Of a stretch of 37,195 nucleotides of DNA, positions 1 to 16,833 are shown piece after piece. Source of the stretch: a virus; IMG/VR virus record IMGVR_UViG_3300028600_000011, positions 1 to 37,195 of that record; one strand, 5' to 3'. Every line of letters begins with the position of its first letter. Position 1 is the stretch's first letter. The notes under the pieces were generated by a model. The model was given only the letters and a program-made list of their open reading frames with translations. It searched no databases and was not told the origin of the DNA. A program made the position numbers and the translations under genes.

Positions 1-393
1 CTGCAGCTGGATGATGTTTGAAGCAACTTCAGTTGGTAGAGCAAATCCACCTTGTGCGTCTACTGAGATTTGTACGTCAGCAGCTTTTGCGCGAAGTCCT
101 TCGACGCCTTTGCGAGCAAAAGTTGCAAGCATATCTTTGTTGTCCATTGTGTTGGATTCCTTAATAGATTGAGTTGAAAGATCTGGGCGAGCAGCTTTAG
201 CTTCTAACGCTTCCATCTTTTCATTGAGGTTTTTGATTTGAGCGTCAGCGTCCGCTTTTACAGCTTCAACAGCGTCAACAGTGGCTTTAGTTTCAATAAG
301 CGCATCCGTTTGTGCAGTAGACACTTCGAGTGCGTCAGCAACGGCTTTCAACGTCACTTCTTCAGCCTGCTTTTCAACAATTACATCAGTCAT
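1..393 (-). CDS. Major capsid protein, HK97 family (N-terminal part only)
   Basis: The gene runs off the left edge; only the first 131 codons are present. The N-terminal ~90 residues are charged, Ala/Glu/Lys-rich and helical (for example DADAQIKNLNEKMEALEAKA). This is typical of the delta or scaffold domain that is removed by protease in HK97-type capsid proteins. The sequence then passes into a GGFALP motif, common where the mature HK97-fold shell domain begins. The ATG lies inside the end of the upstream protease gene (8-base overlap), consistent with the usual portal-protease-capsid order. The function is to form the icosahedral shell. The family call rests on the N-terminus plus context, because the fold-defining region is outside the window. 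Confidence 0.85.
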   Translation of the reverse strand, partial: MTDVIVEKQAEEVTLKAVADALEVSTAQTDALIETKATVDAVEAVKADADAQIKNLNEKMEALEAKAARPDLSTQSIKESNTMDNKDMLATFARKGVEGLRAKAADVQISVDAQGGFALPTEVASNIIQLQ

Positions 394-1069
394 ATTTTTT
401 ACCATTCAGTATGTTAAGCATTCGTTTCAACTCAGCCTGAGTTTCAACTTGTGCGGTATTTGAGTCGTCTTCTGGAGCATCACGCGCCTCGTCTATCCCG
501 GAGAAACCTTTGGCCAGAATGGCCTTGGCATCTTTTCGAGAGACCCCTGCATCACGCAGGACCTTCTCTAGGGATCGAATGTCATGGTCCGATTTCACGG
601 CGGTCACGACAGACTCTTGGTTTGCCGGTATTGCTACCAGAGATATTTCATGAAGGTCTATTTCATGAAGTAAATTTGCGCCGGATTTCCGGTCATACTC
701 TTCGTGCACAACTCGGTATCCGATTGACATTGCATCGAGTGCTCCGTCTTTTAATAGTGCGTAGGCCTCATCAGCATCGCGCACGCCTTTGGTCAAACGG
801 CCCTCGACATAAAGACCTTTGTCGTCCTCGCGCATAGACGTCCAGACCCCAATGGGTCGCGTGGTATCGTGATGCGCAAGCATCTTGACCTTTGTTCCGG
901 CTTCAGCATGTTTTGCAATAGACTTTTGGAACGCGCCAAGCTGCGTAATGTCACCAGCCCGGTCTTTATGGTTGAACGTGTTGGCGTACCCAGAGAACTT
1001 GCGTTCATCTGTGCCATCCACAGCAAAAGTTTTGTGATCAAATGCCAGGATCATCTTCTTATTCGTCAT
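386..1069 (-). CDS. Prohead maturation protease (HK97/U35 family)
   Basis: A 227-residue protein from the ATG at 1069, which lies inside the last codons of the portal gene behind AGGAAAAACC. An upstream in-frame start at 1108 is less likely because it would overlap the portal gene more and lacks a better ribosome site. Family hallmarks are visible: a GYANTFNHKDRAGD stretch near the start, a His in MLAHHD and the serine in ALDAMSIGYRV, which match the His/Ser catalytic residues of HK97-type proteases. The enzyme would cleave the capsid delta domain during head maturation. It is co-transcribed between portal and capsid, the standard order. Confidence 0.93.
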   Translation of the reverse strand: MTNKKMILAFDHKTFAVDGTDERKFSGYANTFNHKDRAGDITQLGAFQKSIAKHAEAGTKVKMLAHHDTTRPIGVWTSMREDDKGLYVEGRLTKGVRDADEAYALLKDGALDAMSIGYRVVHEEYDRKSGANLLHEIDLHEISLVAIPANQESVVTAVKSDHDIRSLEKVLRDAGVSRKDAKAILAKGFSGIDEARDAPEDDSNTAQVETQAELKRMLNILNGKKYD

Positions 1070-2282
1070 CAGGTTTTTCCTGTGGTTGTTTGTCAGCCTC
1101 ATTACCAAACTGTAAGTTGTTTGACTGCATTACGAACTCGTCACCACCCTCTCGGGGGTTATAGCCAAGCTCTTGTCGGGCTTCGTTAGGATTCATGACT
1201 CCAGCAGCAATTAGCGTGTTGTAGGTTTCAACCCTTGTGGCCATATCGGTTCGCAAGAGGTTGGAAACATCAAACTTGAAGTGCTGTGTGTTAACGTTGA
1301 GCAACGCCTTATTGAGCCGTGCTTCAATCTGCATAATGTAGGGCAGCATGGTTGCTTTATAAAAAGCTAAATCCTGGTGCTCAATATTGGAAAAGGTTGC
1401 CCTGTCTAGGTCCCCTATCATGTGTGGGGGCACTCGATACATCGCACATATTTCTGACCGGGTATACTTCCGGGCGTCAAGCAGCTGAACATCATTTGGT
1501 GACAGCGAAATCGGCTGGAACTTTAAGCCCTGCTCAAGGATAGCAACCTTATGGCTGTTTGCTACACCCTGATGGCCAGCGTTCCAGGACGCTTTGATGT
1601 TTTCAAAAGAGTCATCGTCCAATATGCCATCGGTATGCAAAATGCCACGAGGTGTTGCATCGTTTGTAAAAACATTGGCAGCGTAATCCCGCGCATCCAT
1701 ACCTGCGCCGATTGAATTGGCGTTGTATGTGATTGGTGAAATGCCCGTAAGACCATCTAGCGACATGCCACGAATGTGCAATATTTCGCTAGGTCCCAAG
1801 ACATCTTCTTTACCGTTGTCAAACGTGATCTTGTACAGGATGTTGTATTGTTGATCCTGTAGTACCGTTACGTTTTCAGACTTAAGCGGCAGAATTTCAA
1901 CAACCTTGCCCGATGATGTGCGGTTAACGTATCCGTAAAAATTACCATTGAGGCATAGGTTGACCATTACATACGCAAAAAACTCAGCGCCTGTTTGGTA
2001 CTCGTTGGGGTTATTGCGAATAAGATCATGCAGCGGCGCTGCTTTGTGCATTTCCGTGCCAGCGGTTGTTTCGCGATACAGGTGGCAAGGTAATGTCGCC
2101 ATAGTATCTGACAAAACCTTGATGCAGCTGTAGACGGTATTCATGCGCATTGCCTGCTCTGAAGTGACAGTCTTTGTGGCCGAGGTGTAACTCGAGAAAA
2201 AGTCAGACAGCGCAGAGCTATTAAATGGCAGGCTAATTGGTGCAGCTTTCTCTTGAGAGCGGCCCCAGTTAAATAAAGCCAT
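1059..2282 (-). CDS. Portal protein (HK97 family)
   Basis: A 407-residue protein with the features of phage_portal-family proteins: an N-terminal helical region with the motif VYSCIKVLSDTMATLP, a central region with ILHIRGMSLDGLTGISPI, and ARKYTRSEICAMYRVPPHMIGDLDRATFSNIE, which is highly typical of HK97-type portals. It forms the dodecameric ring at the capsid vertex through which DNA is packaged and to which the connector attaches. A strong AGGAGG ribosome site lies just upstream of the ATG. The terminase large gene ends 21 bases before it, and the protease gene overlaps its 3' end. Confidence 0.95.
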   Translation of the reverse strand: MALFNWGRSQEKAAPISLPFNSSALSDFFSSYTSATKTVTSEQAMRMNTVYSCIKVLSDTMATLPCHLYRETTAGTEMHKAAPLHDLIRNNPNEYQTGAEFFAYVMVNLCLNGNFYGYVNRTSSGKVVEILPLKSENVTVLQDQQYNILYKITFDNGKEDVLGPSEILHIRGMSLDGLTGISPITYNANSIGAGMDARDYAANVFTNDATPRGILHTDGILDDDSFENIKASWNAGHQGVANSHKVAILEQGLKFQPISLSPNDVQLLDARKYTRSEICAMYRVPPHMIGDLDRATFSNIEHQDLAFYKATMLPYIMQIEARLNKALLNVNTQHFKFDVSNLLRTDMATRVETYNTLIAAGVMNPNEARQELGYNPREGGDEFVMQSNNLQFGNEADKQPQEKPDDE

Positions 2283-2303
2283 AATGGCCTCCTGAGTGTT
2301 AGA

Positions 2304-3983
2304 TTAAAGTGAGCGCAATCCGCGCTTGCTGTAGACATTTGAAATGAGACCGCCATTCACTTTTAGTCGGCCAAGGGCCATTACCAAAGCGATCACGCCA
2401 TCGATCTTGTTACCTTTGCCTTCTTTCTTAATTTTGATATTGTCATTGGGGTCGATGTACAAAACACAGTTAGACATCATCCAGGACAGAACAGGGTCAC
2501 GGCCATGGCACAGTAGCTTTGCCTTTACCGCTTTTTCGAGCTCTTTTGAGGGGTCAGACATGGCCATAATTCCCTGGGAGAACTTGACCATTGGCGCGCC
2601 TTTATCAACCAAAGAGGCGGAAAGCTGCGTCGCGCCATAAGCATCGTATGCAATTTCGCGCACGTTAAATTTGCCCATAGCATCAAGGACATCTTCCTCG
2701 ATATATGACAAATCTGTAATGTTGCCCTCTGTTGCAGTAATAAAGCCGGCGTTAGTCCACTCTCGATACTTGACACCAATAAAACCGCTGGTGCCTGTAA
2801 CAGTGTCTTCAGGTAAATAGTGTTTTAGGTAGGGGTACATTTTGCCATTTTCCATAAACACAATAGCCATGGACGCAAAGTCAGATACCGACGCCAGATC
2901 AAGCCCGATGTAGCAGGGTTTGCCTGCAAAGTGCTCAATGGGAGGCCTGTCGCCTGCGGACTGGTCCCAATCTTGGGAATTAATCCAGGCAGAGCTTGAA
3001 CTCATCCACTGATTAAGCCGTTTAGTACGAAAGTTAGTCTCAGCGCTGGGTGACTCCATAGCCTGCTTTGCCATACGCTCAAGATCATCAGGAAAGACCG
3101 ATATGCCATATCCTGGATTAGCTTTGCGCCAAACTGCGGGGTCGCGCCAGTCATCTTCTTCATCAATACCCCAAATTGCTGCAAAAAAAGTGTCGTCATT
3201 TACGTCTAGGTGAGGATCTAGCACCTTGGTGCAATACTCTCGAATTTCGTAGCAAATCCCTTCCCGGTTTGTTCCCGCGGTAGTGATTGCAAAGATAATT
3301 GGTTGAGCGCGTGCTCCTGAAGCGACGTTGAGCACGTCCCAGATTTCTGACGTTCGGTGCACATGGAGCTCATCCACCACGCTAAAGCTAGGTGAACGCC
3401 CTTCCAGCGAACCAGCATCAGAAGACAGTGGCTCGAACTTACTACCTGAGGCCTCATGCAGCGTTGCAGACCTGTGGCACTTTAAGTGCTCCAGGAGCTG
3501 CGGCGACTTCTTCACCATCGCTTGGGCATCCCCAAATACGATGCGCGCTTGATCACGAGTAGTCGCGGCCGCATAGACTTCAGCGGCGTTTTCGGAATCA
3601 CCTATGAGTGCATACAACGTAAGACCCGAGCAAAAAGTAGACTTGCCCGATTTACGTGGTACTTCTACATAGGCCGTCCGGTAACGCCTGTAGTTGTCCG
3701 ATCTACGCATCCAGCCATACAACTGGGAGACAATAAAAATCTGCCAGTCGGCTAGTTCTAATGGACGCCCAGCAAGTGGGCCTTTTAGGTGTGACAAAAA
3801 CCCAAAGAACTTGATGCAATGGTTTGCCGCAGCAGCATCATAGTAGTAGGTGCTGCTGGCGTCCTGGCTGCTTTCAAGATCGTTGAGTGCCCTTTGACAG
3901 GCGTGTATAAGTATTCGTGATGCAGGTAGTTGACCACTGACGACTTGTCGCGCGTAGTCCCACCCGACGGAATCGTTCTGCAT
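2304..3983 (-). CDS. terL: Terminase large subunit
   Basis: A 559-residue packaging motor of the Terminase_1/HK97 type. The ATPase domain has Walker A VPRKSGKST at about residues 108-116 and Walker B SVVDE with D204 and E205. The C-terminal RNase-H-like nuclease domain shows acidic residues in YIGLDLA (D362), EIAYDAYG (D447) and NKIDG (D528), the expected metal-binding trio. It cuts concatemeric DNA and pumps it into the prohead through the portal. The start is preceded by CTGAGGAG, a leader shared with six other genes here. Two very small genes separate it from the small subunit. Confidence 0.97.
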   Translation of the reverse strand: MQNDSVGWDYARQVVSGQLPASRILIHACQRALNDLESSQDASSTYYYDAAAANHCIKFFGFLSHLKGPLAGRPLELADWQIFIVSQLYGWMRRSDNYRRYRTAYVEVPRKSGKSTFCSGLTLYALIGDSENAAEVYAAATTRDQARIVFGDAQAMVKKSPQLLEHLKCHRSATLHEASGSKFEPLSSDAGSLEGRSPSFSVVDELHVHRTSEIWDVLNVASGARAQPIIFAITTAGTNREGICYEIREYCTKVLDPHLDVNDDTFFAAIWGIDEEDDWRDPAVWRKANPGYGISVFPDDLERMAKQAMESPSAETNFRTKRLNQWMSSSSAWINSQDWDQSAGDRPPIEHFAGKPCYIGLDLASVSDFASMAIVFMENGKMYPYLKHYLPEDTVTGTSGFIGVKYREWTNAGFITATEGNITDLSYIEEDVLDAMGKFNVREIAYDAYGATQLSASLVDKGAPMVKFSQGIMAMSDPSKELEKAVKAKLLCHGRDPVLSWMMSNCVLYIDPNDNIKIKKEGKGNKIDGVIALVMALGRLKVNGGLISNVYSKRGLRSL

Positions 3984-4007
3984 TGTGGGTCTCCTCAGAC
4001 TTTGGAC

Positions 4008-4130
4008 TTACTTAGCAGGCTTAGCAGCTGGCTTTTTCTTAGGTGGGGCTGATACAGGCGCGGGTTTTTGGGCCGGTGCCACATAACGGCGAGCAGTTTC
4101 ACACCACTCATATATGATTGGTTTTTTCAT
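4008..4130 (-). CDS. Small basic Pro/Ala/Lys-rich protein (40 aa)
   Basis: A 40-codon reading frame between the terminase subunits. It starts at an ATG behind AAAGGAAG and ends 24 bases before the terL start. The N-terminus (MKKPIIYEWCETARRYVAP) could be a short helix. The C-terminal half is a low-complexity Ala/Pro/Lys tail ending KKKPAAKPAK, resembling nucleic-acid-binding tails. No family is recognised. It is believed to be real because of the ribosome site, the lack of overlap and the tight packing. Confidence 0.6.
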   Translation of the reverse strand: MKKPIIYEWCETARRYVAPAQKPAPVSAPPKKKPAAKPAK

Positions 4131-4146
4131 AAACAAAGCACTTCCT

Positions 4147-4290
4147 TTAAGATAGAGAAATCACACCCCAACCAACAAGAATGTTGGCTGTAATAAAGCA
4201 GGCGGTGATTAGGTTAATGAGTACGACAATAGTGCGAATTACTGCTATTGCATCAGACTCTCGATTGTTGGATGACGCTTTTTCGCCCAT
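4147..4290 (-). CDS. Small single-pass membrane protein (47 aa)
   Basis: A 47-codon frame with a polar N-terminus (MGEKASSNNRESD) followed by one long hydrophobic segment, about residues 15-45 (AVIRTIVVLINLITACFITA). It would sit in the inner membrane. It ends 16 bases before the start of the neighbouring 40-aa gene. The ribosome site is poor (only GTGGGC upstream), so translation may depend on the preceding terS gene, whose stop lies about 36 bases upstream. The position between the terminase genes is unusual for a lysis or superinfection-exclusion protein. No family is recognised. Confidence 0.45.
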   Translation of the reverse strand: MGEKASSNNRESDAIAVIRTIVVLINLITACFITANILVGWGVISLS

Positions 4291-4325
4291 AGCTAATGCC
4301 CACAGGCGCCAGGCTTGTCTCAGCA

Positions 4326-4799
4326 CTACTTGTTACCTAGGAACGCTGAAAAAGAGTCCACCTCTATTGGCTTGTTGGCATCAACTTTAGTGCGCGCAGC
4401 GGCGGTTAGCCCATACTCAGTCATCATTTTGGTAATGTTGCTATAGGCGACATTCATTTGAGCTAGTGCTGGGTGACTTTTCATATTCTTATTACCAGCG
4501 CTTCCCTCAACTTCAACCAGGGTGCCCTCAGCTTGCACAATGGCACGCAGTCTTAAGTACATCGTTAGCTGGTCTGCTAACAGCGCAAAGCCCATAGCGT
4601 CAACACCTGTTCCGACACCCATTGAGTAGCAATGCGCTGCAACTTGGTCGTATAAAACATCTGTGATTGGGTCGTTTGAGGCCCAAACAGGCTTCTCTGG
4701 AATTCCTGCCGGGACACTTACTGAACTGGTTGCCCGGTCTTTGCGAAAGGTCCCTTCAAGTTTCTTAAGGGCCTCCGGTTTGCGTTTTCGTCCTGCCAT
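4326..4799 (-). CDS. terS: Terminase small subunit (P27 family)
   Basis: A 157-residue protein from the ATG at 4799, eight codons inside the longest frame. The upstream codons are themselves the ribosome site (CTGAGGAGGAATCACC), which decides the start. The N-terminus AGRKRKPEALKKLEGTFRKD closely follows the P27 small-terminase pattern (GRPxKPxxLKxLEGNPxKR). The rest is helical, as expected for the oligomerisation part. It recognises the packaging site and recruits TerL. Its position, upstream of terL and downstream of an HNH nuclease gene, fits cos-type phages. Confidence 0.9.
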   Translation of the reverse strand: MAGRKRKPEALKKLEGTFRKDRATSSVSVPAGIPEKPVWASNDPITDVLYDQVAAHCYSMGVGTGVDAMGFALLADQLTMYLRLRAIVQAEGTLVEVEGSAGNKNMKSHPALAQMNVAYSNITKMMTEYGLTAAARTKVDANKPIEVDSFSAFLGNK

Positions 4800-4832
4800 T
4801 GGTGATTCCTCCTCAGGAGTCATTAGAACTAG

Positions 4833-4863
4833 TTCATTAAAGGCACATTGAGCTTTTAATGAA
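4833..4863. repeat. Inverted repeat upstream of terS
   Basis: Perfect 9-bp arms TTCATTAAA (4833-4841) and TTTAATGAA (4855-4863) enclose a 13-base loop, starting 34 bases upstream of the terS ATG. A GC-rich non-coding stretch (about 4880-4945) follows. It could be a regulator or terminase-binding site, or a structured leader of the terS mRNA. There is no T-run, so it is not an intrinsic terminator. Confidence 0.5.
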
Positions 4864-4951
4864 TCAAATTAAGGGGCCTTTTGAGTGCAGGGAGACAGTC
4901 TGCTAGCCGTGAGGAGGTCGGCCGGGGCGCGAGAGGCCGTACTCGCAAACA

Positions 4952-5326
4952 TTAGTCAAATAAAACTGATAGATCCGGTGGGGTCCAATCAGATGGCTTA
5001 GTGGCATCACCTTCAAGGCCTCGGCTAGGCTTTACGCCTCGCTTTTTGGCCATATTGGCTTGGTGCACTATCCCGATAGCACGATTGGCGTCGACACCCA
5101 TTTGGTGCATGCCGCCTAGCGCGAAATAAACGAGATCAACCAGAGCATCTACCGTCTCGGGTGCATCTTGGTTGCTTATTGCCTGTTTTAACTCATTTAA
5201 CTCCTCTTCAATAAAGACCGGAAGGTGGGTCTTAACCTTGTCGGGTATTGACCTTGCGGGCTTTGATGGAAATGGGTCATTTAGTACTGTTTCGTTGAAT
5301 TCTCTTACTTTTGCAAATATATCCAT
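4952..5326 (-). CDS. MazG-like nucleotide pyrophosphohydrolase
   Basis: A 124-residue all-alpha NTP pyrophosphatase-type protein. The metal-binding pattern is EExxE at E41-E42-E45 followed by ExxD at E57-D60 with D64, in the helix pair FIEEELNELKQAI / ETVDALVDLVYFALGG. Such enzymes hydrolyse (d)NTPs to (d)NMP and pyrophosphate; the family also includes dCTPases and dUTPases. The substrate cannot be read from the sequence. A strong GAGGAGG site precedes the ATG. A second, unrelated dNTP pyrophosphohydrolase gene lies about 600 bases upstream. Confidence 0.8.
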   Translation of the reverse strand: MDIFAKVREFNETVLNDPFPSKPARSIPDKVKTHLPVFIEEELNELKQAISNQDAPETVDALVDLVYFALGGMHQMGVDANRAIGIVHQANMAKKRGVKPSRGLEGDATKPSDWTPPDLSVLFD

Positions 5327-5583
5327 GTATCTGCATCCTCCTCAGGATTTTTGTTTGAATGTGACAATATGCGTCCGGCTATAGGGCGCGCCTGTCGTAG
5401 GGGTGTTTCGCAGGTATTTGGGGGCCCCCTGGGCTCATATGGGGCCTCCAGAGGCTCGAGGCTGGTGCTTACATACCTGTGGGACGGTGCGCGACACGGG
5501 GCGATTGTGGAGCCCGTGTGCAATAGGTTTTGGTGATTGTGTATAGGCATGGCATAGGCCACATCTATAGTAGTATCAGGGGC
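5327..5583. other. GC-rich non-coding region beside the HNH gene; candidate cos site
   Basis: 257 bases with no convincing gene, much more GC-rich than the rest. They hold the palindromes GGCGCGCC (near 5388) and GGGGGCCCCC (near 5420) and several short inverted repeats. An HNH endonuclease gene lies on one side and, past one small gene, terS and terL on the other. In HK97-type cos phages HNH proteins act with terminase at cos, so a packaging site here or at 4880-4945 is plausible but unproven. Confidence 0.35.
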
Positions 5584-5952
5584 TTATCTCTGGCGCTCTA
5601 CACGCACGCGTGCCGTCTTAGCGTTGTGGCATGCGTGGCATAGCGCTTGCATGTTGCTCTGTACGTAGCCCAGCGCAGGGTTGTCACGGATCTCTACAAT
5701 ATGATCCACCACATCACACGCCCGCGCTATACCCTTCTCGAAGCAGTGTGCACACACAGGGTGGCGCCTACGGTATGCCACTGATGTAGCACGCCAGCGG
5801 CTGCTGTTATAGAAGGCCTCTAATTGCTTACGCTCAGCAGACCCTCTATATGTGGTACTACGCTGCTGGGTGTGCGCTGCACAGAGACTACTACCATGCA
5901 CGAGCTCACTACAGCCGGGGTGCCTGCATGCGGTAGGGGCTGATCTGGCCAC
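5584..5952 (-). CDS. HNH endonuclease (terminase-associated type)
   Basis: A 122-residue protein starting at GTG (5952), which overlaps the stop of the upstream gene as TAGTG; GGAGG lies about 9 bases upstream. The N-terminus has a small zinc-binding motif, C9-C14-C24-H27, frequent in phage HNH proteins. The HNH core follows: C67-x2-C70, DH at 83-84 (VVDHIVEIRDNP), N100, then C105-x2-C108-H109-N110. The family nicks or cuts DNA and in cos phages assists TerL in cohesive-end cleavage. The gene and its 3' flank are GC-richer than neighbours, which may indicate separate acquisition. Confidence 0.9.
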   Translation of the reverse strand: MARSAPTACRHPGCSELVHGSSLCAAHTQQRSTTYRGSAERKQLEAFYNSSRWRATSVAYRRRHPVCAHCFEKGIARACDVVDHIVEIRDNPALGYVQSNMQALCHACHNAKTARVRVERQR

Positions 5953-6341
5953 TACTGGTGGGCCTCCATATCGACCAGCATAGCTAGGCCTGCAGAAGCA
6001 TGAAATAAATGAGGCTTTCCGCTTTCTTCGTCCAAAAGCTCGCCCATTTGAAAGGCTAATAAATGCCGCTGAATTGCTGAATATAATCGGGCAACATACT
6101 CGGCATCACCTTTGCCTTCTAGGTAGTTTTTTCGCCCGTATTTTTTGGCACCAAAAGTCAGCACATCGGCAGTGCCCAAAATGTAGCTTGGGCAAACTAA
6201 ATCAACTGCTGGTTTTTCAGAATCAAACTTTTTAGCCTTTGTAGGCGTTAGTGTCCATTCGGGTGATTTTTGCTTATCAGACTCAAATGCGGCTCGGTTT
6301 GTTAGATTCCACATAGCTGGTGTTGCATCATTTATCGACAC
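5952..6341 (-). CDS. dATP/dGTP pyrophosphohydrolase-like protein (MazZ/DUF5664 family)
   Basis: A 129-residue protein starting at GTG (6341), decided by the strong CTGAGGAGGT site upstream. Residues 38-129 carry the family pattern: KFDSEKPAVDLVCPSYI, then VLTFGAKKYGRKNYLEG, then YSAIQRHLLAFQMGELLDEE and HASAGLAMLVDME. The family includes MazZ, which removes dATP/dGTP in 2-aminoadenine phages. Most members are in ordinary phages, and no purZ or datZ is visible here. The likely role is dNTP-pool adjustment during replication. It overlaps the HNH gene by one base. Confidence 0.8.
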   Translation of the reverse strand: MSINDATPAMWNLTNRAAFESDKQKSPEWTLTPTKAKKFDSEKPAVDLVCPSYILGTADVLTFGAKKYGRKNYLEGKGDAEYVARLYSAIQRHLLAFQMGELLDEESGKPHLFHASAGLAMLVDMEAHQ

Positions 6342-6366
6342 AATGACCTCCTCAGGTTATGTCAAC

Positions 6367-6400
6367 TTAAAAAAAAACCCACACTGAATGTATGGGTTAT
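6367..6400 (-). terminator. Intrinsic terminator in leader after phage promoter
   Basis: On the minus strand, AACCCA (complement of 6393-6398) pairs with TGGGTT (complement of 6376-6381) and is followed by a run of nine T. It lies between the 6.54-kb phage promoter and the MazZ-like gene, so it would trim or attenuate transcripts entering the packaging genes. Confidence 0.7.
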
Positions 6401-6534
6401 GGGATTTGTGCGGGTTCACTGGTTAACCAATGACCCTTAGCGATTGAGATTAGGGTGCAGGGGGATCTTCTGGTAGGGATACAAAGCTCGCTCGAACTTT
6501 TGCCAGTCACCTAAATAGCCTGAAATGGCGTTTT

Positions 6535-6564
6535 CTCTCCATATAATGTAGTTTAATCGTTACA
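6535..6564 (-). promoter_or_regulatory. Promoter for the phage RNA polymerase (copy 5)
   Basis: One of five copies of a 30-bp element. The minus-strand core is ATTAAACTACATTATATGGA, ending in a likely +1 region GGAGAG. It contains the TAA stop codon of the exonuclease gene. The TATATGGRAGA end resembles the CTATAGGGAGA initiation end of T7 promoters. It is the last copy before the packaging and structural genes, so it probably drives late transcription. Confidence 0.8.
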
Positions 6565-7357
6565 CGGGCAGCTGTAGCCACTCCTCACGCTCCGGGTTGA
6601 ACAAGCGTATACGTTTAGCCTTGCTGTCGTAATCGCCCTCACGCAAGATCCTGGCCATCTGTGCTTGCTCCAACCAGTTGTCTTGACCCTTTGCACGGTA
6701 TGCTTCTTTGATCATTTCCCATGCGCTATCAAAGTCGAACTCTTCATAATGTTCGCCCTGGTCGTCCACTAGCACACGATAGAATGGCTTGAGTAGTTTC
6801 TCAGCACCCTTCGGCCCGCAGCCTTTAAGGCCCTTATAGCCATCCGTGGTGTCACCGATCAGCACTTGATACAGCCAGAACTTATCGGCAGCTGCTTGCG
6901 AAGTGTATTGGGGCCAGACCATTTCGTGCTGCCTTAAGTAGTGGCAGTCAGGCAGCGTGTACATATCTTTGTCAATCGAGACTATCACGCTGTTGGGGAT
7001 CTTCCGGTGCAACATGTGAAAGACGTCATCGCCTTCAAGCCAATCGATTGAGATATGTTCGAACCGTGCTTCCAGGGCATCACGTAGCTCGCCGTAGCAC
7101 ACCGGTTTTGGTGTAGCCTTGCGATGCATCTTGTACTCAGGCATTACCAGCTTGCGCCAGTTGGTTGAGTTCTTAGGCGAATAGACCAGGATGACTTCCT
7201 CACAGCTAGCCTGTTCCATCTCTTTCTGGATCTGCCCCAGGGCGTCCTCAATGGCCCCAGAGATGTCTGTCCAGATAGTGTCACCGTAATCACGCTGCGC
7301 TGACGCAGCGGCTTGGTAGTTGATCACGTCAGCATCTAACAGTGCTACTTTTTTCAT
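6560..7357 (-). CDS. T7 gp6-like 5'-3' exonuclease
   Basis: A 265-residue member of the FEN/PolI 5'-nuclease family, started at 7357 behind GGAGGGTGG and overlapping the stop of a 37-aa gene as ATGA. Acidic metal ligands are visible: LLDAD near residues 6-10, WLEGDDVFHML, and SIDKDMYTL. A helix-hairpin-helix follows at GDTTDGYKGLKGCGPKGAEK, which binds the DNA backbone. In T7 this enzyme degrades host DNA and removes RNA primers. The stop codon lies inside a phage promoter. Confidence 0.93.
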   Translation of the reverse strand: MKKVALLDADVINYQAAASAQRDYGDTIWTDISGAIEDALGQIQKEMEQASCEEVILVYSPKNSTNWRKLVMPEYKMHRKATPKPVCYGELRDALEARFEHISIDWLEGDDVFHMLHRKIPNSVIVSIDKDMYTLPDCHYLRQHEMVWPQYTSQAAADKFWLYQVLIGDTTDGYKGLKGCGPKGAEKLLKPFYRVLVDDQGEHYEEFDFDSAWEMIKEAYRAKGQDNWLEQAQMARILREGDYDSKAKRIRLFNPEREEWLQLPV

Positions 7358-7467
7358 GGGACCACCCTCCAGTCTTGCAGGTACACTACGTAGTCCCACA
7401 TTGATTCCTCGCAGCGCTCGCGTTTATTAGCCGAGCACCATTCTTTGTAGCTCATTACTTTTTGCAT
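7354..7467 (-). CDS. Small protein coupled to the exonuclease (37 aa)
   Basis: A 37-codon frame with a good AAAGGAG site seven bases from the ATG. It ends in an ATGA overlap with the exonuclease start, so the two are probably translationally coupled. The product is Trp/Cys-containing and charged (MQKVMSYKEWCSANKRER). It has no recognised domain. It may be a regulator or partner of the nuclease, or simply a leader peptide that sets nuclease translation. Confidence 0.6.
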   Translation of the reverse strand: MQKVMSYKEWCSANKRERCEESMWDYVVYLQDWRVVP

Positions 7468-7480
7468 TTCGGCTCCTTTA

Positions 7481-7780
7481 GACAGCCACATCCAACTTTG
7501 GACGGCTGCTTTTTTCTAGGGACAGCCAAATCCAACTTTGGACTGGTGCTCCAACTTTGGACGGCTGCTTTTTTCTAGGGACAGCCAAATCCAACTTTGG
7601 ACTGGTGCTCCAACTTTGGACGGCTGCTTTTTTCTAGGGACAGCCAAATCCAACTTTGGACTGGTGCTCCAACTTTGGACGGCTGCTTTTTTCTAAGGAC
7701 GGCCAAATCCAACTTTGGACGGCTGCTTTTTTCTAGGGACAGTCACATCTAACTTTAGACTGGTGCTCCAAATTTAGTGT
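7481..7780. repeat. Tandem hairpin array (40-59-59-59-40 bp units plus a degenerate unit)
   Basis: Units begin at 7481 (40 bp), 7521, 7580 and 7639 (59 bp each), 7698 (40 bp) and 7738 (degenerate, running into the DNA polymerase stop). Each 59-bp unit contains two TCCAACTTTGGA palindromes flanked by CAGCC and GGCTG, so it folds into a ~15-bp interrupted hairpin with a 6-7 base loop. Each hairpin is followed on the plus strand by T6. The 40-bp units lack one 19-bp palindrome segment. In the degenerate unit the palindrome is TCTAACTTTAGA, a symmetrical compensatory change. The array looks like tandem intrinsic terminators on the plus strand, opposite to gene transcription; an origin or protein-binding iterons are alternatives. 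Confidence 0.85.
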
Positions 7781-9666
7781 GTGGCAGCCCAGGAGTCTCC
7801 TACACCATACTCGCCATCTAGTTTGCACCGTAAGCATAAGAATTCTCCGGCTTGCGTGATGGCATCTGCGTAGGCCTGACCAAGCACCTCAGCGATCTCA
7901 GGGGCTGCAGACAGCTGAACTTCATCGTGGACCGTTGCGCAATAGTTCCAACCTATTGGCATCCAGTGCTCATCGACAAGGCCGAGCTTCGGAAGTATGT
8001 GAAAGTGGAATTGGTTTGTTGCTTCTTTCATAACAACCGCACCAGCACCTTGCAAAAGCGTGTTGAGGGCTGAGTGCTGGCCGTTTGTAGCGATCTTCCT
8101 GCCATCTAAGCCCTTCAGCCACTTCTGCTTTTTGTCGCGGTCCTGGCAGACCTCAATTAGCTTATCCAGGCCCGTGATACCTTTAAGCAGCGAGTTCCGA
8201 ATCTTCTTGCCGTTCGGTCGCGTGATTGCCATCGGTTTGAGCCCCGCGTTCTTAGCATCAGTTGCATGCACATCAGCGAGCTTTACATCACCAGCCCCAT
8301 ACAAGAACGCGTAGATGAGGGTTTTGGCAGAGTCACGACTGTTTAAGCCTGCTAGCTTTTGCGTGCGAGTGTGTGCATCCGTACCTTCAGAAGCCGTACC
8401 AGATATCACAGCCTTGGCATACTCGCCCCCATCCCATATAGCTAGATAGTGCGCAAGCATTCGAAGCTCTAGCCCGGAGGCATCACAGCCCACAAGTTTG
8501 TGCCCGTGATCCGGCACCCACACCTGACGCATTCGGATGTCTTTCTTATCCACTTGGCCCATGTTGGGATTAAAGTGGCTCATGCGATGCGTGCGGCAGC
8601 CCACAGACTTTACCCGCCCGTGCACCCGCCCATCTTTCTCCAACTTGAGCCACGCGTTCTTGCCACCAGCCAACTGCGACAGCTGCTTCTCTACCCGAAA
8701 CAGCCGTTTTAAAGGTTCAGCTTCAGGCACTCGAAGATTGGCCAGTACCGACTCATCGATCTGGGGTACCCCGCTCGGAGTGAACTTGCTAGGTTTCCAA
8801 GCAGGGTACTTACTGGTCAATCGACGTACAATTTGCAGCCTAGATCCAGCGTTAAACACTTCGCACTTTATTTTGGTGTACGGAGCGCCTTTAGTGATCC
8901 CACGTGACTTGTTCTGGACCTTTGGGTCAGCAACCTTGATGTTTGCCCAGCGATGTTCGTTATGGTCCCATGTGGCTCCATCTGGGATGTACTGTGGTGG
9001 GAACGTATCACCCATATCACGATCAAGCAGCACTGCCTCCTCAGTCAGTACGCTTTCAAGCTCGCGTGCTTTATCCAGGTCGAGCCTAAACCCGTGAGCC
9101 TGCTGTAATGCAAGAGCCCAGCACGTTTGGTGCTCATTGACGATTGAGGGCCTCCAGTCGATGTTTTCGTGCACAAGGTCATGCTTCATCTGCGCCTGCA
9201 ATTTGTGGTAGATCTTCATATTGATCTCCACATCGCGCTCGCAATACAGGAACATTTCTTTGAACTGTTGCTCGCGTGTTTTTCCGTCTTCCAGCTGCAT
9301 GGTGAAGTTCGTAAAGTCACCCTTCTCAGCCCCAAACTCTTGGCCGTATGCTTTGATGGCATGTGAGCGTCGTTCTGGCTCAATTAGGGCTGCTACAACG
9401 ATTGAATCCCAAAGCTGCTCAAACCTTAGAGTGTTGGGATAAAGTTTGTGCAGGGCCCAATAGTCAAACCCAATGAGGTTGTGCGCGACTACTCTGTCAG
9501 CTGCAACCAGACGCTCAATACCTGTTTGCAATGATGGGTAGTCATCATCATAATCAGTATAGGTTTGTATTTCGCCCGTCACCGGATCGCCGATGCCACA
9601 GGACCAAATGGTCGTCATGCTATCGACAAAACCATCTGTTTCTAAGTCAAAAATCAGGGTCTTCAT
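7774..9666 (-). CDS. DNA polymerase I-type replicative polymerase (T7 gp5-like, with 3'-5' exonuclease)
   Basis: 630 residues, family A. The exonuclease domain has D7 and E9 (FDLETDG), HNLIGFD (N63-D68) and YCERDV (Y141-D145). The polymerase domain has motif A GCDASGLELR with D395, motif B RDSAKTLIYAFLYG with R444, K448, Y452 and Y456, and motif C VHDE at 579-582. The residue equivalent to E. coli Phe762 is Tyr452, as in T7. This is associated with low discrimination against dideoxynucleotides and, in viral surveys, with lytic phages. It replicates the genome with the gp4-like helicase and gp2.5-like SSB. GGAGGAG precedes the ATG. Confidence 0.97.
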   Translation of the reverse strand: MKTLIFDLETDGFVDSMTTIWSCGIGDPVTGEIQTYTDYDDDYPSLQTGIERLVAADRVVAHNLIGFDYWALHKLYPNTLRFEQLWDSIVVAALIEPERRSHAIKAYGQEFGAEKGDFTNFTMQLEDGKTREQQFKEMFLYCERDVEINMKIYHKLQAQMKHDLVHENIDWRPSIVNEHQTCWALALQQAHGFRLDLDKARELESVLTEEAVLLDRDMGDTFPPQYIPDGATWDHNEHRWANIKVADPKVQNKSRGITKGAPYTKIKCEVFNAGSRLQIVRRLTSKYPAWKPSKFTPSGVPQIDESVLANLRVPEAEPLKRLFRVEKQLSQLAGGKNAWLKLEKDGRVHGRVKSVGCRTHRMSHFNPNMGQVDKKDIRMRQVWVPDHGHKLVGCDASGLELRMLAHYLAIWDGGEYAKAVISGTASEGTDAHTRTQKLAGLNSRDSAKTLIYAFLYGAGDVKLADVHATDAKNAGLKPMAITRPNGKKIRNSLLKGITGLDKLIEVCQDRDKKQKWLKGLDGRKIATNGQHSALNTLLQGAGAVVMKEATNQFHFHILPKLGLVDEHWMPIGWNYCATVHDEVQLSAAPEIAEVLGQAYADAITQAGEFLCLRCKLDGEYGVGDSWAATH

Positions 9667-9677
9667 GAGCTCCTCCG

Positions 9678-10160
9678 TTAAGGTCTCTCGTAAACAATAA
9701 AGCGGTATGGTATTTTTTGAGGTTTAGCAGGCATGGTCACTTTGGTAGCACGCCACTTGTTCTTGTTCCAAGCTGGGAAAAACGCATCTGCATCAGTCAC
9801 CTTTGTTTGCACTTCAGTGAGGTACAGCTTGTCAACGTACGGGAGTGCATCGGTGTAGACCTGTTGGCCTCCAATGACTATTACCTCGGCGACATCCTCC
9901 GCTATTGCTATCGCGTGGTGCATGTTGCGAGCAACCAGGACACCAGGATGGCTCCAGTCAGGGTTGCGGGTCAGTACAATATGAATGCGCCCGGGGAGAA
10001 CCCGACCAATAGATTCAAATGTCTTGCGCCCCATCAGGATGGGTTTGCCCATTGTTACTGCTTTGAAATACTCCAGATCTTCTGGGATGTGCCAGGGCAA
10101 CGCGCCCTGCTTACCGATTACATTGTCAGCATTTACAGCTGCAATTATTGATAGCTTCAT
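9678..10160 (-). CDS. folA: Dihydrofolate reductase
   Basis: 160 residues from the ATG at 10160. An in-frame start at 10238 would lie inside nrdJ and the terminator and is rejected. GGAGACAC is the ribosome site. The N-terminal fold is MKLSIIAAVNADNVIGKQGALPW with Met20-loop Trp23 and the substrate-binding acid D28 (IPEDLEYFK). GRKTFES and VIVIGGQQVY are the NADPH-binding segments. It regenerates tetrahydrofolate from the dihydrofolate made by thymidylate synthase-type methylation, matching the ThyA-like gene 4 kb upstream. Length is normal (E. coli 159). Confidence 0.95.
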   Translation of the reverse strand: MKLSIIAAVNADNVIGKQGALPWHIPEDLEYFKAVTMGKPILMGRKTFESIGRVLPGRIHIVLTRNPDWSHPGVLVARNMHHAIAIAEDVAEVIVIGGQQVYTDALPYVDKLYLTEVQTKVTDADAFFPAWNKNKWRATKVTMPAKPQKIPYRFIVYERP

Positions 10161-10174
10161 TAGTGTCTCCAAAT

Positions 10175-10197
10175 AAAAAAGGGGCCTTGCGACCCCT
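10175..10197 (-). terminator. Intrinsic terminator between nrdJ and folA
   Basis: On the minus strand, AGGGG (complement of 10193-10197) and CCCCT (complement of 10180-10184) form a 5-bp stem followed by a six-T run. It lies 7 bases past the nrdJ stop. It is followed directly by TTTTATTTGGAGACA, a 15-base string that recurs after the tail-tube terminator at 34.7 kb. Confidence 0.65.
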
Positions 10198-10203
10198 GAT
10201 GGT

Positions 10204-12102
10204 TTAACCTCCGATGTCAACAAGCTCGCAGCTGTCACCGCTACATGCCATGGTCTGGCTGCTCACTGTTGTATCTTCTTTTTCAAACTCCTGTAGCCCC
10301 GTCCAGTCGATAGCCGTAGGCATATCAGCAAATGCTGCTTCGTATGCTTCTGCGGTAATCTCTTGGTAAGGAGCTTGCTTGTAGGTGTGGTCCGAATGCG
10401 GCAGGAATGACACACCTGAGACCTCATCAAAGTGCTTATAAACCCAAGCGCCAACATCAAGCCACTCCTCATTGCGGACTGTGATGGTCACCGAAGGCTT
10501 GTGCTCACACCAATGGCGCTGGTACATCAGCCAAATTTCTAGCTGCTGAATAGCGTTGATGTCATCACGGGTCACTGCGCCCTCAGGTGCTTTGGTTGGG
10601 AAGCTAAAGACCGTTGTTGTGTTGCCCCGGTACGCGCATGGCTCACTTGGTATGCCCTTAGCCTGGAGGAACTGCGTTAGTGGATCCTTGTTATCACCGC
10701 GCACAGTCCTGATATAGTACTCAGAATGGCGTGTATGAATCCCGGATGCTGAATCGACCAGTTGGGAAACTGTGCCCGATGGCTTCACAGCGGTGATGGC
10801 TGTTGAGACTTCGACGCCTAGGTTTTCGGCCCAGAGCTCATTAGTATCAATAGCAACCTGTTTAAGGCGCTCCAGGATCCCGGCAGCATCAGGTCCAGTA
10901 GAAACCTGATAGTTGTCCATGATGCCTGTCATCGATACACCCAGCAGCCTTTCCTCTGACGTGTTGTTTTCCCAGAGCTTTCTTAAGTATGGGAATTTGG
11001 TGTAGGTTGATTGGATTGTGCCCAGGATAGACGCCACTCGAACCTTTTGCTCAAGCGATGCTTCAGTGTCATCAGCCCGGATCACAACCTCGGTTAGGTT
11101 GCAAAACTGGTACGGGCGCAAAATGATTTCGCTGCACGGATTGGTGCCAAAGTCGCGTGAGGCGTCCCTGCGGCCGTTCTTACCAGCCTGCTTCTGTGAG
11201 GCTATGCGTGAAAATATGCCACGCTCGCCAGACTTAGATTCAACCAGGGCAGACCACTCACGCAGGAACGTTTCAACATCAGGCTTCTCGGTGTATGCCA
11301 CTGAGTTGTTTGCTAGCCCTCGTTGCGGCTCCATGTCGTACCAGTTGCCAGACTTAGCATGACGCATGCGGTCATCGGACAGGTTAGACAGACTAATCAT
11401 GGCTGAACGCCTAACGCCACCAGCTACAACCACCTCACCGATTTTGCACATGATGTCATGGCACTGGAGCGAGGACAGGCGACCGCCTGCTGCTGCTTTG
11501 AAGGTTTCACAAACAAAGGCAAATAGCTCTTCCAGGGGTGCAGGTCCGCTTGCACGGCCACCAAAGGTTTTGAGCTTTGTGCCTGCTGCGCGTACCCGGG
11601 AGACATCCCAAACTGGGACTTCACCAGACCACAACAGCGACATCAATTGGCGCAAGGCTTTTGCCCAGCCTTCTTTGCTATCACGTACCACAATCGTGGT
11701 CATGCTGGGAAATAACTCATCAGGCACATCAGGCAGCTTTGAGACATACTGCCGCTCGACAGAGAAGCCCACCCCCGTACCACACAACAGGATAAACATT
11801 GCTTCATCAAATGACTTTGGGTCATCGACAGGCAAATAGCTGCAGTTATAGGCACAGGTGTTATCGCGATCCATTGCGGGGCCTGCAGACATCAGGGCAC
11901 GCATTGAGGGCATAACCTTTAGTTCAAGTATGCTAGTTCTTATTTCTTGGTATGTATCGGGATCAACTTTTTTGGCAACTACGTTGATCATGTAGCGGTC
12001 AACGGTTTCTTCCCAAGTCTCCCGGCGTGCTTCCTCAGGCAACCAGCGGGCATATCGGCTTAGGGCTATATATTTTTGGTACTCAGTCATCGTCTCGCTC
12101 AT
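10204..12102 (-). CDS. nrdJ: Ribonucleotide reductase, class II (adenosylcobalamin-dependent, monomeric)
   Basis: 632 residues, similar to monomeric B12-dependent ribonucleoside-triphosphate reductase. The catalytic finger loop NPCSEIILRPYQFC gives N321, thiyl Cys323, E325 and redox Cys334, with the same 11-residue spacing as C408/C419 in the Lactobacillus enzyme. The other redox cysteine is in NTCAYNC (C83 or C87). The C-terminal CSGDSC pair (C620, C625) is the re-reduction motif. It is about 100 residues shorter than the Lactobacillus enzyme. It supplies deoxynucleotides without an oxygen-dependent radical subunit but needs host or environmental cobalamin. Such enzymes are common in marine phages. 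A weak AGGAA site precedes the ATG. Confidence 0.93.
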   Translation of the reverse strand: MSETMTEYQKYIALSRYARWLPEEARRETWEETVDRYMINVVAKKVDPDTYQEIRTSILELKVMPSMRALMSAGPAMDRDNTCAYNCSYLPVDDPKSFDEAMFILLCGTGVGFSVERQYVSKLPDVPDELFPSMTTIVVRDSKEGWAKALRQLMSLLWSGEVPVWDVSRVRAAGTKLKTFGGRASGPAPLEELFAFVCETFKAAAGGRLSSLQCHDIMCKIGEVVVAGGVRRSAMISLSNLSDDRMRHAKSGNWYDMEPQRGLANNSVAYTEKPDVETFLREWSALVESKSGERGIFSRIASQKQAGKNGRRDASRDFGTNPCSEIILRPYQFCNLTEVVIRADDTEASLEQKVRVASILGTIQSTYTKFPYLRKLWENNTSEERLLGVSMTGIMDNYQVSTGPDAAGILERLKQVAIDTNELWAENLGVEVSTAITAVKPSGTVSQLVDSASGIHTRHSEYYIRTVRGDNKDPLTQFLQAKGIPSEPCAYRGNTTTVFSFPTKAPEGAVTRDDINAIQQLEIWLMYQRHWCEHKPSVTITVRNEEWLDVGAWVYKHFDEVSGVSFLPHSDHTYKQAPYQEITAEAYEAAFADMPTAIDWTGLQEFEKEDTTVSSQTMACSGDSCELVDIGG

Positions 12103-12115
12103 GTCTCTTTATTCC

Positions 12116-13771
12116 TTAAATGTCTGTAATTGAATCCCACGGCAGAGTGCTCGCAGCTTCGGTTGGGGTTTGGTTTGGTTCGTGGTCAACAGGATTCATG
12201 CGCCCTGTTTCAACGTTGTATTTAAGATGTCCTGCTGGTCCGACTTGCCCAAATGGGCGGTTTTTCAATAGCCTGAGTTTTGCGACATCAGAGTCGTCTT
12301 CCGCTTGCTGGTCTCGCTCGATACCAATGACGATATCGCTGAGCTGCTCTAACGCTGCACTCCCCCGCAAATCCGTGAGGGAAATAGAGCCACCTTCGTT
12401 GTAGCTTTTATTTTTGTCGCCTCGCTTAATGTGGCTGACTGCAATAACACCAGCGCCTGTGTTCTCAACCATCTGCCGCAGCTTGGTCATTAGCATGTCT
12501 AGGCTTTTGCGCTCGTCGTCAGTGCCACCTGATACCACCATGGACACATGGTCTAAAACGATAAAGTCGCACTCGAGCCCGACAGCCAGATACCGCATTT
12601 TGCCAATCAGCTTGTCGACCTCTGACGAGCCAAATGAGTCATAGAACGCAGCAGGCTCAACGACCTTTGAGTAAGATGCTTCCCACTGTTCCTGGGTCAG
12701 GATGCTGGACTCTTCCATCAAGTCACCCAGGGGCACGTTGTTATCCAGGGCAACCATTGCCTGCGCAGTTTTAGACACAGACTCTTCAAGCATCACATAG
12801 CCAACTTTCTGGCCGTGCTCAGTTGCAAGGTGGTAACCCAGTTCTCGGGTGAATGACGACTTGCCAATACCAGAACCTGCACAGACCATAACGAGCTCAC
12901 GCTTTCGCAATCCTCGGATCATCTTGTTGAGCTGTAGATATGGAATGCAGCAGCCTTTCGGTGTGACGGCCTGGAGCTCAGCGATTGTCAGGTCGCTGCC
13001 CAGCACGATTCCCTCAGGGCTATAGGACTTGGCGTTGTAGACGCTATTTTTGAGCTCTTTAATTAACCCAGCTACCAGCATCTCGTTGGCATCTTTTAAG
13101 CTCAGCTGCACAATTTTGGCTTTGCCGGGTGAAAGTAGCTCAGCGCACTCTCGTGCACTTTCCTGCCCAGGTTCATCCATATCAAACATGAAGCAGACCT
13201 CGTCGAAGCTATCAACAAACTCGAGGTTCCTGCGAATGGCCTTAGCAGCGCCTGCAGCCCCGTTAGGTAGTGAGACCACTTCCCAGCTAGGTGCAACCGT
13301 TGCGTAGCTCAAGGCATCAAGCTCGCCTTCGGTAATAACCAAACGCTTGCCGCCACTCTTGAACTTATGTTGGAAGACCAGTCCGCCCTGCTTCAAGTCG
13401 CCAATGACACGGAAGTCTTTCCCAGGGAGCCGGATCTTCTGGGCAACCAGTCGACCCTTGTCGTCATGAATTGGGGCGATGTGACACTTTTGTCCCTGAT
13501 AGACGCCAACCATGTAGCCCATAGTTTTGCAGACGGTAGCTTTGATTTGGCGTTTTACTAGATCTAAGTACTCGCCCTGTATAAACCCCCGGTCTGGGAA
13601 GGTCTCGGTGACTAGGGCAACTTTAGGCTCTGGGCTGTCTTGGCTAGGACCCTTGTAAGCGGTGCAAGCAAAGCAGTATTGGTGTCCGTCATCATAGAGA
13701 CTATTCGCATCGGAAGACCCACAGGCTTCACAGTCGATATGCTCTACAAATGCACTTTCTTTTTGTTCCAT
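12116..13771 (-). CDS. Primase-helicase (T7 gp4-like)
   Basis: 551 residues from the ATG at 13771, chosen because CTGAGGAGG lies just upstream. A longer frame to 13963 would overlap the preceding small gene. The N-terminal zinc finger C14-x2-C17...C33-x2-C36 recognises primase sites. A TOPRIM region follows (LVITEGELDALS, then FDMDEPGQ). The C-terminal RecA-like helicase has Walker A GSGIGKSS, Walker B DFIVLDHVSM and the RGSAALEQLSD segment. It unwinds DNA 5'-3' and primes lagging-strand synthesis. It lies directly upstream of nrdJ with a 13-base gap. Confidence 0.96.
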   Translation of the reverse strand: MEQKESAFVEHIDCEACGSSDANSLYDDGHQYCFACTAYKGPSQDSPEPKVALVTETFPDRGFIQGEYLDLVKRQIKATVCKTMGYMVGVYQGQKCHIAPIHDDKGRLVAQKIRLPGKDFRVIGDLKQGGLVFQHKFKSGGKRLVITEGELDALSYATVAPSWEVVSLPNGAAGAAKAIRRNLEFVDSFDEVCFMFDMDEPGQESARECAELLSPGKAKIVQLSLKDANEMLVAGLIKELKNSVYNAKSYSPEGIVLGSDLTIAELQAVTPKGCCIPYLQLNKMIRGLRKRELVMVCAGSGIGKSSFTRELGYHLATEHGQKVGYVMLEESVSKTAQAMVALDNNVPLGDLMEESSILTQEQWEASYSKVVEPAAFYDSFGSSEVDKLIGKMRYLAVGLECDFIVLDHVSMVVSGGTDDERKSLDMLMTKLRQMVENTGAGVIAVSHIKRGDKNKSYNEGGSISLTDLRGSAALEQLSDIVIGIERDQQAEDDSDVAKLRLLKNRPFGQVGPAGHLKYNVETGRMNPVDHEPNQTPTEAASTLPWDSITDI

Positions 13772-13787
13772 TGTGGCCTCCTCAGGT

Positions 13788-14791: not shown

Positions 14792-14801
14792 GATGGACTC
14801 C

Positions 14802-15303: not shown

Positions 15304-15315
15304 AGGGTGGTTCTC

Positions 15316-16481: not shown

Positions 16482-16526
16482 TGAGAATTCTCCTCATGGA
16501 TGTCATTAGGGGTTTTAAAAGTTGGA

Positions 16527-16768: not shown

Positions 16769-16833
16769 ATACTGCTCCTGATTGGATTGGTTGGGGGTTG
16801 GTTGTGATTACTGTCAGGTGTATGCGGAAAGGG

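Follow-up and report, generated by a model that had tools for sequence, protein, structure and literature searches.

Why does a phage carry two genes from different deoxynucleoside triphosphate (dNTP) hydrolase families within a few hundred bases of each other? The question is raised by the IMG/VR virus record IMGVR_UViG_3300028600_000011, whose 37,195 bases are hereafter called the window, and in which an initial annotation had placed two dNTP pyrophosphohydrolases some 600 bases apart. Both open reading frames (ORFs; Table 1) could be confirmed by matches to PF01503 (MazG-like) and PF18909 (DUF5664), and the 625 bases between them are occupied by an HNH endonuclease gene. Both hydrolase genes are real and look to be under purifying selection; against the closest sister lineage (the contig of L006/L021), NG86 gave dN/dS values of 0.018/0.31 and 0.13/1.21, and YN00 gave 0.024/0.19 and 0.16/0.69. 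On balance, we consider it probable that the phage puts 5-methylcytosine (5mC), or less likely another 5-modified cytosine, in its DNA, and that both hydrolases serve this pathway by editing the nucleotide pool. The logic of XP12-type phages, rearranged and with DUF5664 added, is the best explanation for this phage.

A thymidylate synthase (TS) homolog, whose ORF extends to 14869 with an ATG at 14791, is central to this reading. Aligned with E. coli ThyA and T4 gp42 (E. coli numbering throughout), it has Asp177, Leu143, Phe147 (not His), Trp80, and Cys146, and the residues of a dCMP-type enzyme were all found, i.e., Asp177 together with the catalytic Cys146, Arg166, Tyr94, and Glu58. Exchange of Asn177 for Asp has been reported to switch the substrate from deoxyuridine monophosphate (dUMP) to deoxycytidine monophosphate (dCMP), positions 177 and 147 were the top two TS positions separating cytosine-modified from unmodified contigs in a metagenome study, which also lists PF01503 with the domains that accompany TS on cytosine-modified contigs (PMC8670742). 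Asp177 is described as kept in cytosine-using enzymes of the TS family, with Asn in TS and in dUMP hydroxymethylase (PMC5175136). T4 gp42 combines Asp177 with Asp at the 143-equivalent and Thr at 147. The former Asp (Asp145 of the T4 enzyme, dCH) is reported to hold the hydroxylating water (PMC6841964) and aligns with Leu143 of the window protein, a residue shared with TS; an Asp at this position, as expected of a T4-type hydroxymethylase, was thus not found. Because Asp177 is combined with Leu143, leaving no water-holding Asp, we predict that the window TS is a dCMP methylase. Production of 5-methyl-dCMP, and with it 5mC in DNA, is predicted from Asp177, Leu143, Trp80, and a dihydrofolate reductase (DHFR) gene. 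Elsewhere, phage genes annotated as "thymidylate synthase", or nearly so, all have Asp177 (loci L022-L025, L027, L033, L160, and L161); by this residue, they may be dCMP methylases or hydroxymethylases. Two further TS (L165 and L168) have Arg143, Ser147, and Asp177, with His replacing Glu58 by alignment and a mazG-like gene 3-4 kb away.

The company kept by relatives of both hydrolases was surveyed in six-frame ORFs of 236 sequences (two control loci excluded) using TS, mazG, and DUF5664 profiles. The mazG-like scan covered the best 80 of 491 confirmed matches and provided 74 new loci, and the DUF5664 scan covered the best 80 of 581. A TS match was present in 57 of the 74 new mazG-selected loci, and all 56 that could be resolved (one was truncated) carry Asp177, at a median gap of 570 bp. 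DUF5664-selected loci (n = 80) yielded 14 TS matches, with Asp177 in 13/13 resolved cases (one was a fragment) and gaps of 3-549 bp. Loci selected by TS similarity (n = 41), by comparison, comprised 4 Asp and 37 Asn (2 vs. 37 without the window lineage), besides seven unresolved fragments. Fisher tests against this set gave p-values of 2.3e-24 (mazG-selected) and 1.7e-10 (DUF5664-selected), which are too small, since related contigs are not independent. Among 83 dereplicated TS, 59 Asp177 proteins had a mazG-like or DUF5664 match nearby and 2 had none, as compared to 1 Asn177 protein with and 21 without such a match (p = 2e-16). Isolate stretches (n = 17) contained a TS gene in eight cases, with Asp177 in 8/8. 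The earlier suggestion that the hydrolases act with nrdJ, folA, and the ThyA-like enzyme in reshaping the nucleotide pool is therefore strengthened: the ThyA-like enzyme has Asp177, and so do nearly all TS near relatives of either hydrolase. The mazG match list includes AAT-1, PaMx28, PaMx74, and AXL1, which share a genus with Xp12, whose DNA reportedly has every cytosine replaced by 5mC (PMC9206674). This list also includes several mazG-domain proteins that are annotated as HAD or Cof hydrolases.

Judged by sequence and predicted fold, the first hydrolase is a DR2231-like member of the all-alpha nucleoside triphosphate (NTP) pyrophosphohydrolases, with a relation that spans the whole domain. 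Its nearest solved chains are those of DR2231 from Deinococcus radiodurans (2.5e-9 with the single sequence, 3e-20 with a 64-row profile), which reportedly acts on dUTP, going by the title of a 2016 paper by Mota. The AlphaFold2 model, with a mean predicted local distance difference test (pLDDT) of 95.4, matched DR2231 nearly end to end in Foldseek (5.7e-6). VIA aligned 117 residues with DR2231 (5hwu; root-mean-square deviation 1.9) at a Z of 12.7, which is not decisive by itself for a helical model, but the sequence profile concurs. Remaining superfamily members scored Z values of about 8 and lower, and clearly unrelated rows reached no more than 6.7. That dCTPases belong to this family holds for the superfamily, in which mouse dCTPase structures are found; however, these rank lower in the VIA list, and the closest solved structure is that of DR2231, by title an enzyme acting on dUTP.

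The EExxE/ExxD signature given in the initial annotation could be retained in its first half. E41, E42, and E45 (EExxE, helix 2) are invariant in 64/64 aligned rows, as are D60, D64, G71, N91, and K94. The textbook ExxD in helix 3 was not found; the second acidic pair is D60-x-x-x-D64, and E57, used in the ExxD reading, lies outside the invariant or nearly invariant columns. For D60 and D64, the 64/64 count arises partly by selection, because one of two locus-search patterns favoured DxxxD, but both residues are also invariant in 9/9 rows of an alignment (A1) collected without that pattern. The same one-residue offset has been described for a superfamily member from E. sibiricum, whose proposed substrates are dCTP and its derivatives (PMC2954211), so superfamily membership stands despite the motif. 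From the alignment, we predict a metal site formed by E41/E42/E45 and D60/D64. An Arg proposed to contact the base suggested dCTP in the E. sibiricum enzyme (PMC2954211); it is found in the mazG proteins of nearly all Asp143-type loci and in DR2231. As DR2231 has it too, this Arg decides nothing on dCTP, and the Arg36-equivalent was dropped as a dCTP marker.

The kinship with DR2231 invites the reading that the MazG-like protein is an ordinary phage dUTPase of this type, which would exclude uracil and supply dUMP, while the DNA is unmodified and the TS makes thymidylate (dTMP). DR2231 is the nearest solved structure by both sequence and fold, several of its entries contain dUMPNPP, and a trimeric dUTPase (PF00692) was found neither in the window nor in three related records, all possibly incomplete; furthermore, the window has DHFR and TS. 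However, residue 177 is Asp instead of Asn, both in the TS of the window lineage and in every resolved TS of the new mazG-selected loci. A supplier of dUMP for dTMP should equally neighbour Asn177 TS; the Asp177 bias therefore counts against the dUTPase, which we regard as unlikely, although it deserves serious consideration.

A TS-like methylase makes dihydrofolate, and a T4-type hydroxymethylase is reported to yield tetrahydrofolate (PMC5175136), which brings the DHFR gene into the argument. Among the 83 dereplicated TS, DHFR was detected within 5 kb of 15/20 N143/P147/D177 proteins and of 0/28 D143/T147/D177 proteins (p = 1.4e-8), as well as in 2/2 rows of the window lineage and near 0/1 E143 TS. 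Restricted to loci with both flanks longer than 4 kb, the contrast was 8/11 (N143) vs. 0/15 (D143). As the DHFR profile had been built from members of the N143 class and the window, the test was repeated with Pfam PF00186; the direction holds, but the strength drops.

These data bear on a second alternative, in which the phage forms 5-hydroxymethyl-dCMP like T4 and not 5-methyl-dCMP, with the hydrolases acting in the manner of T4 gp56, a dCTPase. Asp177 is common to the window TS and T4 gp42, and 25 of the 28 dereplicated T4-like D143/T147/D177 TS have a mazG-like match. Nevertheless, the window has Leu at 143 and Phe at 147, where T4 has Asp and Thr, and its DHFR recalls the N143 and not the D143 class, though it resembles only 1/7 of the L143/H147 class in this respect. 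We judge the hydroxymethyl route improbable. That DHFR is so rare near Leu143/His147 TS, the class closest to the window TS at 143, speaks against taking DHFR as proof here.

A third alternative came from the initial annotation, namely that the hydrolases counter host defence, either by removing the alarmones of the stringent response or by restoring pools attacked by nucleotide-depletion systems. NTP pyrophosphohydrolases can be broad in substrate, but neither hydrolase matched a PADLOC family at E <= 0.01, only the HNH protein matched, weakly, among five window proteins compared with PADLOC, and the neighbourhood signal is one of nucleotide biosynthesis. The proposal thus found no support and is very improbable.

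The second hydrolase exceeds the PF18909 gathering score (83.8 bits vs. 27) and matches phrog_801, "dATP/dGTP pyrophosphohydrolase" (3.4e-26). K43, G64, K67, Y68, R92, H93, G100, D104, and H114 are invariant in a 66-row alignment. Its model has a pLDDT of 85.7, below that of the MazG-like model, and gave no Foldseek match at E <= 0.001; the best VIA match, 2p06 at Z 7.8, is under the level that is informative for helical models. Comparison with the profile of the first enzyme (A4) by hhalign (probability 0.2) revealed no profile relation, and these comparisons do not support one superfamily for both hydrolases. Of the former label "MazZ/DUF5664-like", the second part is correct; a DUF550/MazZ-type domain was not found in the protein, and the joint name should be split because MazZ is a MazG-fold enzyme. 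The assignment of the second family to dATP/dGTP hydrolases fits the DUF5664 protein of Arthrobacter phage Wayne, which is reported to take dUTP as well, turning over dATP with a kcat of 0.48 per second and having apparent values of 0.22 for dUTP and 0.053 for dGTP (PMC12884076). This study, on 2-aminoadenine phages, was the one paper on phage DUF5664 in the library searched. However, 3 of 102 DUF5664 ORFs, a number that counts the window lineage several times, are fused to an N-terminal PF00383 dCMP/cytidine deaminase domain (Amaethon L033, L054, and L094), all three no more than 550 bp from an L143/H147/D177 TS. In Amaethon, a Dickeya phage, the genes for TS, an NTPase, and deaminase-DUF5664 follow one another. 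Through these fusions, DUF5664 is linked with pyrimidine metabolism more closely than one would expect from its name. In the DUF5664 tree, the 15 Asp177-associated rows are scattered in several places among unlabelled rows; with labelled rows only, a minimum of two changes is needed and one origin is possible, a weak result from few columns. The window protein clusters with L120 and L163, and the positions of two Z-phage proteins are unsure. The substrate of DUF5664 is the weakest part of our proposal. Elsewhere, DUF5664 proteins in phrog_2252, phrog_5033, and records H63 and H115 are labelled "endolysin; inhibits RNA polymerase", apparently through misannotation. It is hardly credible that the window protein belongs to a pathway for a 2-aminoadenine (Z) genome of the kind found in SH-Ab 15497 and Wayne: it shares its Pfam family with the protein of Wayne and with the N-terminal domain of that from SH-Ab 15497 (41% identity to the latter over 87 columns), but a PF00709 (PurA/PurZ-type) gene was absent from the window and three related records (4/4, possibly incomplete) and present in 14/14 controls, and the MazZ/Z-genome reading was set aside on these grounds.

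In the favoured pathway towards 5mC, the B12-dependent reductase of the phage would supply dCTP together with the host. The MazG-like enzyme would use its two-metal site (E41, E42, E45, D60, and D64) to cut dCTP and/or dUTP into dCMP (dUMP) and pyrophosphate; cleavage of dCTP would both lower the ordinary dCTP and feed dCMP. The Asp177 enzyme would methylate dCMP to 5-methyl-dCMP with methylene-tetrahydrofolate as donor, and the phage DHFR would regenerate folate from the dihydrofolate left behind. A kinase, none being recognised in the phage and perhaps the host's, would make 5-methyl-dCTP, which the phage polymerase would build into DNA; this family A polymerase would need to accept the altered dNTP. 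DUF5664 would be a second, separate hydrolase that cuts down a different dNTP, likeliest dUTP and/or dATP, as measured for its Wayne homolog. The protein families, the fold match for the first enzyme, the residues, the counts of neighbouring genes, and the fusions are observations; from them, we infer every substrate, the direction of flux, the preference for 5-methyl over 5-hydroxymethyl, and the presence of the modified base.

Several observations weigh against this pathway. The survey counts are not independent, and Asn177 TS occur despite a match at L154 and L155 (mazG-like about 8.3 kb off) and at L152 (divergent DUF5664). No TS match was in reach in 66/80 of the best DUF5664 loci, and in the window itself, the TS gene adjoins neither hydrolase gene, at distances of 8.6 kb (mazG-like) and 7.6 kb (DUF5664). 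A dCMP deaminase, usual in other loci (17/20 and 20/28), was absent from 4/4 records searched, all possibly incomplete, and the Pfam scan of 30 window ORFs revealed no nucleotide kinase. DHFR was found within 5 kb in only 1/7 L143/H147/D177 TS, the class nearest to the window TS at 143, and in 0/2 R143, 0/1 A143, and 4/22 ordinary Asn177 TS. With PF00186 over whole records, the N143, D143, and L143/H147 counts were 7/20 (3 above the cut-off), 0/28, and 1/7 (p = 0.001 for N143 vs. D143), although Pfam misses divergent phage DHFRs, including the annotated DHFR of RDJL Phi 1. Where the E. sibiricum enzyme has the Arg taken to indicate dCTP, the MazG-like protein has Leu35, and dUTP may be its true substrate, given that DR2231, by title, acts on dUTP.

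Compared with known systems, DR2231 shares the domain nearly end to end and the predicted fold with the MazG-like protein, and both have EExxE, the conserved N and K, and a KPxGW tail; the window enzyme differs by DxxxD (a one-residue offset) instead of ExxD, is encoded by a phage, and has a predicted substrate only. T4 gp42/gp56 offer a similar sequence of steps, i.e., dCTP to dCMP, followed by C5 modification by an Asp177 TS-family enzyme. T4, however, has Asp at 143 and a reaction that yields tetrahydrofolate (PMC5175136), while the window protein is TS-like at 143. In AXL1/XP12-type phages (Bradleyvirinae), the pyrophosphohydrolase adjoins TS, dCMP deaminase, and DHFR. The window resembles AXL1 in its mazG domain (39.7% identity), Asp177 TS, and DHFR. 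In contrast to the window, AXL1 has adjacent genes, a deaminase, an N143/P147 TS, a longer pyrophosphohydrolase, and a class Ia ribonucleotide reductase (PMC9206674); in the window, mazG lies by the probable genome terminus, the TS has L143/F147, a deaminase was not found, and the reductase is class II. The Wayne protein has PF18909 in common with the window DUF5664 (8e-9 in a direct single-pair match) and is reported to hydrolyse dATP, dUTP, and dGTP (PMC12884076), but Wayne is a Z-DNA phage with PurZ0, no PurZ homolog was found in the window, and about 97 residues precede the domain in Wayne as compared to about 34 here. MazZ of cyanophage S-2L is reported to have a MazG-HisE fold (PMC8342488), a fold also predicted for the MazG-like protein of the window (7ody, Z 8.1); it is MazG-type and not DUF5664, is (d)GTP-specific, and is encoded between datZ and purZ, with no purZ homolog found in the window.

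On the minus strand, the genes are ordered integrase, single-subunit RNA polymerase, single-stranded DNA-binding protein, RusA, TS homolog, primase-helicase, class II ribonucleotide reductase, DHFR, family A polymerase, 5'-3' exonuclease, DUF5664, HNH, mazG-like, terS, terL, portal, and protease. The reductase also matched TIGR02505 RTPR (2.6e-91), with 306.9 bits under that model's cut-off of 340. The order PolA-exo-DUF5664-HNH-mazG-terS-terL is conserved in L163 (mazG identity 54%), with HNH at the equivalent place plus extra unassigned ORFs. The window is not a full genome, as contig L002 extends beyond its position 1 into sequence unmatched in the window, and megablast of positions 1-20000 against phage records revealed no near DNA relative.

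The description of the hydrolase pair as part of the packaging region applies to mazG-like, which adjoins terS/terL; DUF5664 and HNH end the replication module, and a probable terminus lies between. Contigs L002, L003, L005, and L164, from three lineages, share one aligned first base between HNH and mazG, which, in the window lineage, precedes the start codon of mazG by 55 bases. L002 and L003 are 100% identical over 5381 bases, the L005 lineage has 88% DNA identity, and the L164 lineage has 54% mazG identity. The window, L004, L006, L007, and L163 read through this site, and L162, from the lineage of L164, begins farther upstream. The right genome end was sought by the pattern upstream of the site, which was found only in L004, a read-through contig; the terminus is thus supported by left-end contigs only. 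Lying between HNH and terS, it looks cos-type, and the contig starts suggest that 5381/5382 is probably a physical genome end.

Table 1. Features of the window discussed in the text, with their best profile matches.
Feature	Position	Strand	Match or remark
Terminase small subunit, gene next after mazG-like	4326-4823	-	PF05119 1.4e-14
MazG-like all-alpha NTP pyrophosphohydrolase, 124 aa	4952-5326	-	PF01503 PRA-PH 5.4e-15
Probable physical genome terminus, cos-like end	5381/5382		just upstream of mazG-like
HNH endonuclease, 122 aa, gene between mazG-like and DUF5664	5584-5952	-	PF01844 5e-7; phrog_144 2.5e-31
DUF5664 (PF18909) protein, 129 aa, putative dNTP pyrophosphohydrolase; its GTG start follows CTGAGGAGG	5952-6341	-	PF18909 dGTP_diPhyd_N 8.8e-24
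Family A DNA polymerase	7774-9666	-	PF00476 1.6e-28
Dihydrofolate reductase	9678-10238	-	PF00186 1.1e-55
Class II (B12) ribonucleotide reductase, RTPR-like, dNTP source	10204-12102	-	phrog_367 2.7e-186
Thymidylate synthase homolog, predicted dCMP methylase	13985-14791	-	PF00303 6.8e-74
Single-subunit RNA polymerase	20171-22639	-	
Integrase	23500-24516	-	

Three other regions caught our attention. A tandem repeat array with a 59-base unit (7491-7767; about 4 copies plus a 40-base variant) lies between the exonuclease and polymerase genes, and contigs L004, L007, and L119 start or stop inside it. At 17797-18510, a long ORF of 237 aa on the plus strand, amid minus-strand genes, matches phrog_3754 of unknown function. 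The region 20171-24833 combines the phage RNA polymerase with the integrase and a helix-turn-helix repressor-like gene; this phage with its own RNA polymerase is possibly temperate.

Chemically altered cytosine in phage DNA is a known disguise against bacterial defences. As a wider and clearly more tentative idea, which may well prove wrong, cytosine-remodelling phages could use two dNTP hydrolases, with DUF5664 as an additional pyrimidine-pool enzyme alongside dCMP methylases, hydroxymethylases, and deaminases, perhaps recruited repeatedly and even fused with a dCMP deaminase, although its name is that of a purine dNTPase, and with both enzymes helping to replace dCTP by 5-methyl-dCTP in the phage described here. 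If true, a few residues of a gene that is routinely annotated as thymidylate synthase, together with its company (a DR2231-like hydrolase, DUF5664, and DHFR or its absence), would help to predict by sequence which uncultured phages alter their cytosine, and the same signs could perhaps tell methyl from hydroxymethyl modification. DUF5664, a widespread phage family, would then gain a second, testable role besides that in 2-aminoadenine phages.

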